The notes below the pieces were generated by a model. The model did no database searches and was not told the DNA's origin. It saw nothing but the letters and a program-made list of their open reading frames with translations. A stretch of 64,000 nt of DNA. It comes from Cardiobacteriaceae bacterium. Its GTDB lineage: Bacteria; Pseudomonadota; Gammaproteobacteria; Cardiobacteriales; Cardiobacteriaceae. Both the position numbers and the translations under genes were made by a program. The DNA lies in contig JAUNEA010000001.1 of NCBI GenBank assembly GCA_030525785.1, positions 124,001 to 188,000 of the forward strand, given 5' to 3'. This document shows, piece after piece, positions 8,581-50,231 of this stretch. Within the stretch, counting starts at the first letter, position 1. Each line of letters begins with the position of its first letter.

Positions 8581-8611
8581 CAAAAAGAAAGCCCCAAAGC
8601 GCTTTGGGGCT
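8581..8611 (-). terminator. zapA terminator built on the palindrome
   Basis: A perfect 22-base palindrome (8590-8611) consists of the 12-mer CAAAGCGCTTTG extended by AGCCC on the left and GGGCT on the right. On the minus strand it is followed by TTTCTTTTTG, so it works as a rho-independent terminator for zapA. Confidence 0.8.
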
Positions 8612-8629
8612 AAGGACAAAAGTTTTGGC

Positions 8630-48729: not shown

Positions 48730-48792
48730 TTCACCTAACTTCTTTATCATCAATTACCCTAAAACGCTTTGGCGTTAAATAACGAGAATTTT

Positions 48793-49425
48793 ATGCTTCA
48801 TCAACCCCCTTTGCCTGCCGAATATGTGTTCACCAGTGATTGGTTTAGCCATAATGTTGCAGCCATCAATGTTGTTTTTGATTATATCCAGCCCCAGAAA
48901 ATTTTAGAGATTGGCTCACATGAGGGGCGCTCAGCTTTGTATTTTGCAGAAAAAGCACTTCAATATCATCGTAAAGTGGGCATTTGCTGTATTGACCATT
49001 GGGAAAATCTCAAGCCTGTGCAAGGCTATACACATGAACAAATTTTTGACCACAATATGCGCGTAGCTCAACAACGCCACGCAGGGATTAAACTTGTCAA
49101 ATACAAACAAAAATCCCATCTACAAATGATGGACTTAATCACCAAAGGAAGAACAGGTTATTTTGATTTTATCTATGTTGATGGTTCACATAAAAATCCC
49201 GATGTAATGCTTGATGCTTTGCTGGCACATCAATTGGTGAGAATTGGTGGCGTAATTGCTTTTGATGATTATTTATGGTCGCCCAGTAGTGTTCCCACCA
49301 ATCAAGACCATTACAGCCTTATCAAACCTGCGGTTGATCACTATGTGAATAGCTATCAGGAAAAAGTGCAGATTTTGCAGATGTTGCCGTGTTATCAATT
49401 GTACGTGCAAAAGATTGCTCACTGA
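48793..49425 (+). CDS. Class I SAM-dependent methyltransferase, substrate unknown
   Basis: A 210-residue protein of the Methyltransf_24 type. Motif I KILEIGSHEG lies at 36-45. IDHWENLKP and the acidic loop DFIYVDGSHKNPDVMLDAL with IAFDDYLW follow, as in small-molecule and sugar methyltransferases. Nothing in the neighbourhood indicates the substrate. The ATG at 48793 has only a weak ribosome site (CGAG); an upstream in-frame TTG at 48769 is unlikely. It carries no palindrome copy, unlike most genes here. Confidence 0.75.
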   Translation: MLHQPPLPAEYVFTSDWFSHNVAAINVVFDYIQPQKILEIGSHEGRSALYFAEKALQYHRKVGICCIDHWENLKPVQGYTHEQIFDHNMRVAQQRHAGIKLVKYKQKSHLQMMDLITKGRTGYFDFIYVDGSHKNPDVMLDALLAHQLVRIGGVIAFDDYLWSPSSVPTNQDHYSLIKPAVDHYVNSYQEKVQILQMLPCYQLYVQKIAH

Positions 49426-49445: not shown

Positions 49446-49480
49446 AAAGCGCTTTGAGTTCATCAAAGCGCTTTGTTTTT
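49446..49480 (+). terminator. Terminator formed by two palindrome copies
   Basis: AAAGCGCTTTGA (49446-49457) and TCAAAGCGCTTT (49463-49474) are exact reverse complements around a GTTCA loop, followed by GTTTTT. Each arm is itself a copy of the window-wide palindrome. It follows the methyltransferase gene and faces convergent rlmB. Confidence 0.8.
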
Positions 49481-49508: not shown

Positions 49509-50231
49509 CTAACGTCTCTGCCTTCTTGCCTCAAATAGCATAATTCCACAAGCAACGGATACATTTAAGCTTTCCATCTCGTCATTCATCGGAATGGCAG
49601 CAAGGTAATCACAGGCTTCTCGAATACTTTGCCGTATCCCCTCCCCTTCATTGCCAACTACCAATGCCAATGGTCTTTTTAAATCAACATCGTAAATTTC
49701 AAGCTCAGTTTCACCAGCACCACCAACTACCCAAATGCCTTGTTCTTTCATCAATTCAAGCTCACGACGTAAATTGGTTACACTGAAAATAGGCAAAATC
49801 TGTGAAGCACCGCAAGAAACTTTATGTACCGTTGCATTAATCTCTGCTGCTCTATTTTGAGGAATCAACACTGCATCAACTCCAGCTGCCAAAGCGCTTC
49901 GTAAGCATGCGCCAAGATTGTGAGGATCTTGAATACTATCTAGCACCAATATCAAAGGCGAATCGATGCCATGAATCGCGTCTTGCCATGATTTCACGGC
50001 TCCCAAATGCTGGCACCAAGCCAAAATACCTTGATGGCGAACGTTGGGTAACTCCATATCCAATTGATAACCTTCTTTTTCCTCTATCGGAATCCTAAGC
50101 GCTTTGGCTCGTTCCACAATTGCCAAAACATTCTTAGAACGCTTGTTTGAACTCACCCATAGTTTTACCACTCCACCACGTGAAAGCGCTTCTTCAACAG
50201 CATGAACACCACCAATCCAATAATGTTTCAT
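49509..50231 (-). CDS. rlmB: 23S rRNA (guanosine-2'-O)-methyltransferase RlmB
   Basis: RlmB methylates the 2'-OH of G2251 in 23S rRNA. The 240-residue SpoU-family (SPOUT knot) protein has an N-terminal L30e-like domain and the three SpoU motifs: VLDSIQDPHNLGACLRSA, VVGNEGEGI, and LNVSVACGIMLFE. mgtE lies 22 bases upstream on the same strand. Three palindrome copies are present. Confidence 0.95.
   Translation of the reverse strand: MKHYWIGGVHAVEEALSRGGVVKLWVSSNKRSKNVLAIVERAKALRIPIEEKEGYQLDMELPNVRHQGILAWCQHLGAVKSWQDAIHGIDSPLILVLDSIQDPHNLGACLRSALAAGVDAVLIPQNRAAEINATVHKVSCGASQILPIFSVTNLRRELELMKEQGIWVVGGAGETELEIYDVDLKRPLALVVGNEGEGIRQSIREACDYLAAIPMNDEMESLNVSVACGIMLFEARRQRR

Follow-up and report, generated by a model that had tools for sequence, protein, structure and literature searches.

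Two copies of a short palindrome lie close together between two convergent genes in the window analysed here, which is the whole stretch of 64,000 nucleotides. They raise two questions: whether the pair acts as a transcription terminator, and what a palindrome so abundant in this genome is for. The site and its neighbours comprise the following features.

48769 to 49425, + strand: small methyltransferase (Methyltransf_24) of 218 aa, the gene upstream of the hairpin, with a putative TTG start
49446 to 49457, + strand: 5' arm of the hairpin, AAAGCGCTTTGA, a palindrome copy AAAGCGCTTT plus GA (from sequence, fold and terminator scan)
49458 to 49462, + strand: loop GTTCA (from sequence and fold)
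49463 to 49474, + strand: 3' arm of the hairpin, TCAAAGCGCTTT, TC plus a palindrome copy AAAGCGCTTT (from sequence, fold and terminator scan)
49475 to 49480, + strand: G at 49475, then TTTTT at 49476-49480, the U-tract of the predicted + strand terminator (from sequence)
49509 to 50231, - strand: rlmB, RlmB/TrmH-type (SpoU) rRNA 2'-O-methyltransferase, the convergent gene

The original prediction had placed two palindrome copies at 49446-49457 and 49463-49474, pairing over 12 bp with a five-base loop and followed by a T-run, and this proved exact to the base. The 10-mer AAAGCGCTTT occurs without mismatch at 49446-49455 and 49465-49474, AAAGCGCTTTGA and TCAAAGCGCTTT form a perfect 12-bp stem with a 5-nt loop, and GTTTTTAG stands directly 3' of the hairpin (49446-49474). 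The hairpin begins 20 nt past the stop of the + strand ORF (48769-49425) and the stop-codon end of rlmB lies 34 nt beyond the site, which places it in a convergent intergenic position; a transcript of rlmB reaches the same hairpin from the opposite side, where there is only a weak T-tract. Folded as RNA, the site yields -18.4 kcal/mol (z -6.0), a value equalled by none of 200 shuffles, and it was listed first among the 19 terminator-like sites of an independent 14-kb scan in which the total number of sites was no higher than in shuffled DNA. As in intrinsic terminators, a stable, G+C-containing hairpin lies downstream of a gene and a U-tract follows it on the sense strand; two details count against a terminator, namely a T5 tract that starts one base past the stem and a stem base that is A/T-rich. 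It had also been proposed that each arm folds on itself as a competing structure, but single arms do not fold as RNA (0 kcal/mol), so that only a DNA cruciform is possible. At the 3' ends of orthologous rlmB genes in relatives no conserved terminator was found, and the octamer present there in genome G006 belongs to a repeat element of its own. Elsewhere in the window, at about 8589-8629 on the - strand, a lone motif copy lies within a longer palindrome, AGCCCCAAAGCGCTTTGGGGCTTTCTTTTT, which could fold alone and so form a terminator by itself.

The core of the palindrome, AAGCGCTT, is present in 4,391 copies in the 1.617-Mb assembly, or 1 per 368 bp. Counts of the 10-mer AAAGCGCTTT are 118 for the window and 3,149 for the whole genome, in which a reversed control appears 3 times. 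The symmetric consensus is CAAAGCGCTTTG, and beyond these 12 bp there is almost zero information; all 12 bases are matched by 1,756 copies in the genome and by at most 6 copies in each of 273 other genomes of the class. Relative to a third-order Markov expectation the core is over-represented 67-fold and its one-mismatch neighbours 1.2-fold. The half-sites show a slight asymmetry, as at least one of them nearly always continues with T (copies lacking it on both sides: 7 observed, 25 expected). A search of the literature on the motif returned no relevant paper. The assembly (93.7% complete, 18 contigs) represents one genome of the genus, and our statistics combine genome-wide pattern counts with 555 kb of complete contigs (C9 and C12 of this genome, G000) and further stretches; gene boundaries are our own ORF-based calls, and the reported p-values assume independent sites.

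Most copies are genic: 1,250 of the 1,547 copies in the 555 kb fall within called genes. Termination cannot be the main reason for the palindrome, since some 80% of its copies are in genes. In 90 gene alignments to relatives, 96.8% of motif codons aligned gap-free (98.7% for all codons), and amino-acid identity at motif codons was 42% versus 58% overall. Gap-free alignment together with lower identity indicates that the copies were gained mainly by substitution, either where residues vary or with some cost to the protein. rlmB itself carries three copies at gap-free positions, none of which holds the motif in any of 12 relatives. Density differs with position: the first 20 nt after stop codons hold 16.7 copies per kb and the next 20 nt 15.7, falling to about 2.5 copies per kb by 60-120 nt, compared with 2.3-2.5 per kb in coding DNA. 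Within the coding DNA of C9 and C12 motif copies repel each other; genic pairs at gaps below 45 nt occur at 0.3-0.4 of expectation, and the ratio reaches 1 only beyond 100 nt. This depletion is not specifically an avoidance of hairpins, because it runs smoothly to about 60 nt. The largest motif desert in the two contigs spans 6.7 kb (C12:163748-170490). That deserts consist only of horizontally acquired DNA was ruled out: the largest contains, besides a DpnII-like restriction-modification set, the core gene tex, both named from reading the sequence rather than from a family search.

Could the pair at 49446-49474 be a chance neighbourhood of two copies, with no function in termination? The counts of pairs are compatible with this. 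Genome-wide, 41 close pairs were found at gaps of 3-12 (4.1 per gap length), no more than the copy number predicts; gaps of 13-42 hold 141 pairs (4.7 per gap), and random placement gives about 6.1 per gap. A close pair as such is therefore expected at the motif density of this genome. The placement of the pairs is another matter, as 34 of the 41 are intergenic, whereas intergenic DNA holds about 25% of all copies and makes up 9% of the bases (nominal binomial p ~1e-17 against a 20% null). Nearly all of these 34 lie within about 60 nt past a stop codon, and none was assigned to a divergent intergenic region. The number of pairs past stops again matches the density there: in the two complete contigs we observed 6 gene-tail pairs at gaps of 3-14 versus 8.6 simulated, and 14 at gaps of 15-44 versus 8.8 simulated, a modest excess. 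Short loops were not preferred among the pairs. Enrichment of pairs as proof of selection for terminators is thus ruled out, pair counts matching motif density. Six viral contigs also carry close pairs, each with only those two copies in the stretches examined.

What speaks against mere chance is found downstream of the pairs. For pairs 3-14 nt apart in non-convergent gene tails, we counted T among the 9 sense-strand bases that follow the pair. This count averaged 4.97 after tail pairs versus 2.68 on the opposite side (Wilcoxon p 5e-5) and 2.44 after single tail copies (Mann-Whitney p 1.5e-12), and runs of at least 4 T were present after 15 of the 31 pairs and after 12 of the 221 singles (p 4e-9). 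The larger test pools stretches chosen for close pairs, a choice that does not bias T content; the unselected contigs alone, a small subset of 9 pairs, agreed, with 5.33 T versus 2.44 on the opposite side and 2.46 after singles (p 0.004 and 3e-6, respectively). Pairs within genes have no T excess. The strand-specific T-tracts therefore follow tail pairs and neither singles nor genic pairs, and the site at 49446-49474 has its T5 on the correct strand, between convergent genes. Against this background, a chance pair seems distinctly improbable. The genome-wide search for motif pairs followed by T-runs, which had been put forward as a check, thus supported the predicted function of the pair as a terminator, as did the fold and the convergent position. 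A simple hairpin-plus-T rule applied to 265 gene ends in the 555 kb yielded 90 predicted terminators, 19 of which (21%) are motif pairs and 14 more contain one copy, so that 33 of 90 (37%) contain any copy.

The site is very probably an intrinsic (Rho-independent) terminator whose arms are two co-opted copies of a lineage-specific, iterated palindrome. Its anatomy and position, the copy number of the motif and the T-tract statistics were observed directly; we infer that termination takes place and that the palindrome came first and the terminator second. RNA polymerase would transcribe both palindrome copies, the RNA would fold into the 12-bp stem with its 5-nt loop, and the U5 tract after the hairpin would bring about release of the transcript. 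Such a terminator would chiefly end transcripts of the methyltransferase gene on the + strand, and may act weakly on those of rlmB arriving from the opposite direction. The arms would not have been made for termination, being two of about 4,400 copies (core AAGCGCTT, consensus CAAAGCGCTTTG) of a palindrome that would arise mainly by base substitution throughout the genome and be best tolerated just past stop codons. Since the motif equals its reverse complement, neighbouring copies always make up an inverted repeat, and those tail pairs that acquired a T-tract would have become terminators. The pairs look co-opted rather than over-produced for termination, since they are no commoner than the post-stop motif density predicts; their number looks neutral, whereas their T-tracts look selected.

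Terminators recruited from pairs of uptake sequences are already known, and in those systems the motif is oriented, so that function and recruitment are entangled. With a palindromic motif, the observed rate of pairs can be set against what neutrality would give, which makes co-option separable from selection for pairs. The present pairs resemble the paired DUS/USS terminators (Kingsford 2007, PMC1852404; Frye 2013, PMC3630211) in being close inverted pairs of an abundant motif. Like the pairs of Neisseria and Pasteurellaceae, they lie after stop codons, are followed by T-tracts and are very few within genes, and they make up a sizeable minority of all terminators; terminators with an uptake motif amount to 17-29% of those in Pasteurellaceae and to about 55% of those in Neisseria (Kingsford 2007, PMC1852404). 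Unlike DUS/USS pairs, they do not exceed the number predicted from motif density in the tails and are formed by a motif about three times denser; as that motif reads the same on both strands, orientation is irrelevant and two close copies always make an inverted repeat.

The original prediction had taken the paired arrangement as support for an uptake-sequence-like history. This does not follow, because any abundant palindrome enriched after stops yields hairpin pairs, and the motif is a lineage-specific palindrome that occurs at higher density than DUS/USS. Taken on its own merits, the idea that the palindrome is a DNA uptake sequence for natural transformation, with the paired copy as the terminator re-use familiar from Neisseria and Pasteurellaceae, is possible but rather doubtful. 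A short over-represented motif with thousands of copies (uptake motifs have about 1,000 or more), gained mainly by point mutation and enriched at gene tails, agrees with it, as does the slight half-site asymmetry. ComEC is present in the genome, but ComEC itself is general. To our knowledge, known DUS/USS are not palindromes; they are oriented, whereas CAAAGCGCTTTG is symmetric. The architecture and the terminator share resemble the figures of Kingsford 2007 (PMC1852404), and the drop from the exact core (67-fold) to its one-mismatch neighbours (1.2-fold) goes in the direction described for DUS/USS (PMC1939737). At 1 per 368 bp, however, the palindrome has about three times the density of DUS, which is roughly 1 per 1,150 nt (PMC2397512). 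Moreover, DUS/USS or their dialects would be expected throughout a family, while none of the sampled sister genera has a dispersed genic counterpart of the motif, though most have ComEC. Cardiobacterium hominis, possibly a relative, was identified by genetic transformation, according to a title cited in PMC3630211.

As for the role of the palindrome itself, a HIP1-like process linked to methylation or repair seems to us slightly likelier than an uptake sequence. Following Elhai's model, the palindrome would be kept by a process linked to DNA methylation or repair and termination would be a by-product, a reading that we hold tentatively, at somewhat less than an even chance. HIP1 (GCGATCGC) and the alternate HIPs of cyanobacteria (Elhai 2015, PMC4390886) likewise have a palindromic octamer core, extreme over-representation and a sporadic, lineage-specific distribution, and HIP1 is methylation-linked in cyanobacteria (PMC4390886). 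The motif studied here has a copy number of the HIP1 class and near-absolute specificity; like HIPs, which recur at spacings of hundreds to about a thousand bp, it is far more frequent than expected and is spread through coding DNA, most copies being genic. Unlike HIP1, it has an A/T-flanked 12-bp consensus (CAAAGCGCTTTG), occurs in an unrelated, probably gammaproteobacterial genome, is strongly enriched after stops (which is not described for HIP1 in the paper compared) and is used in predicted terminators.

The candidate enzymes speak on both sides. MutH was not found in the 10 family genomes searched, which leaves room for another mismatch-repair mark, and the core contains AGCGCT/GCGC, a plausible target for a cytosine methyltransferase, of which the genome has one of the C5 type. 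This C5 gene, however, adjoins that of an NgoFVII-type endonuclease:

L061:49-2201, near the start of contig C8 of this genome: C5 cytosine methyltransferase, then NgoFVII-type (PLD + B3-like) endonuclease

The motif does not contain GCSGC, the known target of NgoFVII. Besides the C5 enzyme, the genome has a D12/DpnII-like set and an N6/N4 enzyme of type III size. Among the C5, D12 and N6/N4 enzymes, the three families searched, no methyltransferase could be tied to the motif or to AGCGCT, and in these families none common to this genome and genus g7 was evident. A methylation-dependent self-mark has a precedent in Campylobacter jejuni, because there a short, frequent motif methylated by CtsM decides the uptake of own DNA (PMC8468864). 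Unlike the palindrome, that motif is very short and recognised only when methylated, and in the passages compared it is described as neither massively over-represented nor paired in terminators (PMC8468864).

The palindrome might instead be the site of a dimeric chromosome-binding protein (a nucleoid, segregation or recombination factor) needed every few hundred bp. A symmetric 12-bp consensus suits a dimer, motif density is fairly even along the contigs (mostly 20-35 per 10 kb), genic spacings below 60 bp occur at 0.3-0.55 of the expected frequency, and there are fewer spacings of 1.0-1.5 kb than expected. Yet a genic location with an amino-acid cost is unusual for such sites, and we consider this explanation unlikely.

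The broader proposition, that a gammaproteobacterial palindromic self-mark (for uptake or for methylation/repair) evolved and that its neighbouring copies secondarily came to form about one fifth of detectable terminators, is no more than a tentative one at present. If true, this self-mark would exceed the neisserial uptake sequence in density, and sister genera would have almost no dispersed copies of it. With a palindrome massively iterated in one genus and not dispersed in the sampled sister genera, the long-open question of how HIP1-like sequences originate becomes testable in a small genome.

Sister genera hold 4-235 copies of the core AAGCGCTT, except genus g7 (G006 and G010) with 1,427-1,674 copies of the octamer. 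A dialect of the motif was ruled out for g7: in G006 the octamer is part of a repeat located between genes, in which successive octamers are separated by a near-constant gap of 23 nt. Many intergenic arrays of G006 (L051-L053, L092-L094) have a 31-bp period and read TTTTTACCA-n-AAGCGCTT-n-TGAGAAAATTTCTCA-n-AAGCGCTT-n-TGGTAAAAAA. The palindromes between the octamers are of the AGAAATTTTCT type, and the element, made of alternating palindromes, is distinct from the dispersed motif. In G001 and G007 (genus g2), AAGCGCTT occurs only 4 and 7 times versus 41-49 for the reversed control; this near-absence, in a genus with several C5 methyltransferase genes, possibly reflects restriction avoidance. 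Finally, the palindrome TGCCGGCA is present 8 times in 20 kb of L055 (G012), where 0.9 would be expected, and is perhaps another repeated palindrome of the order.
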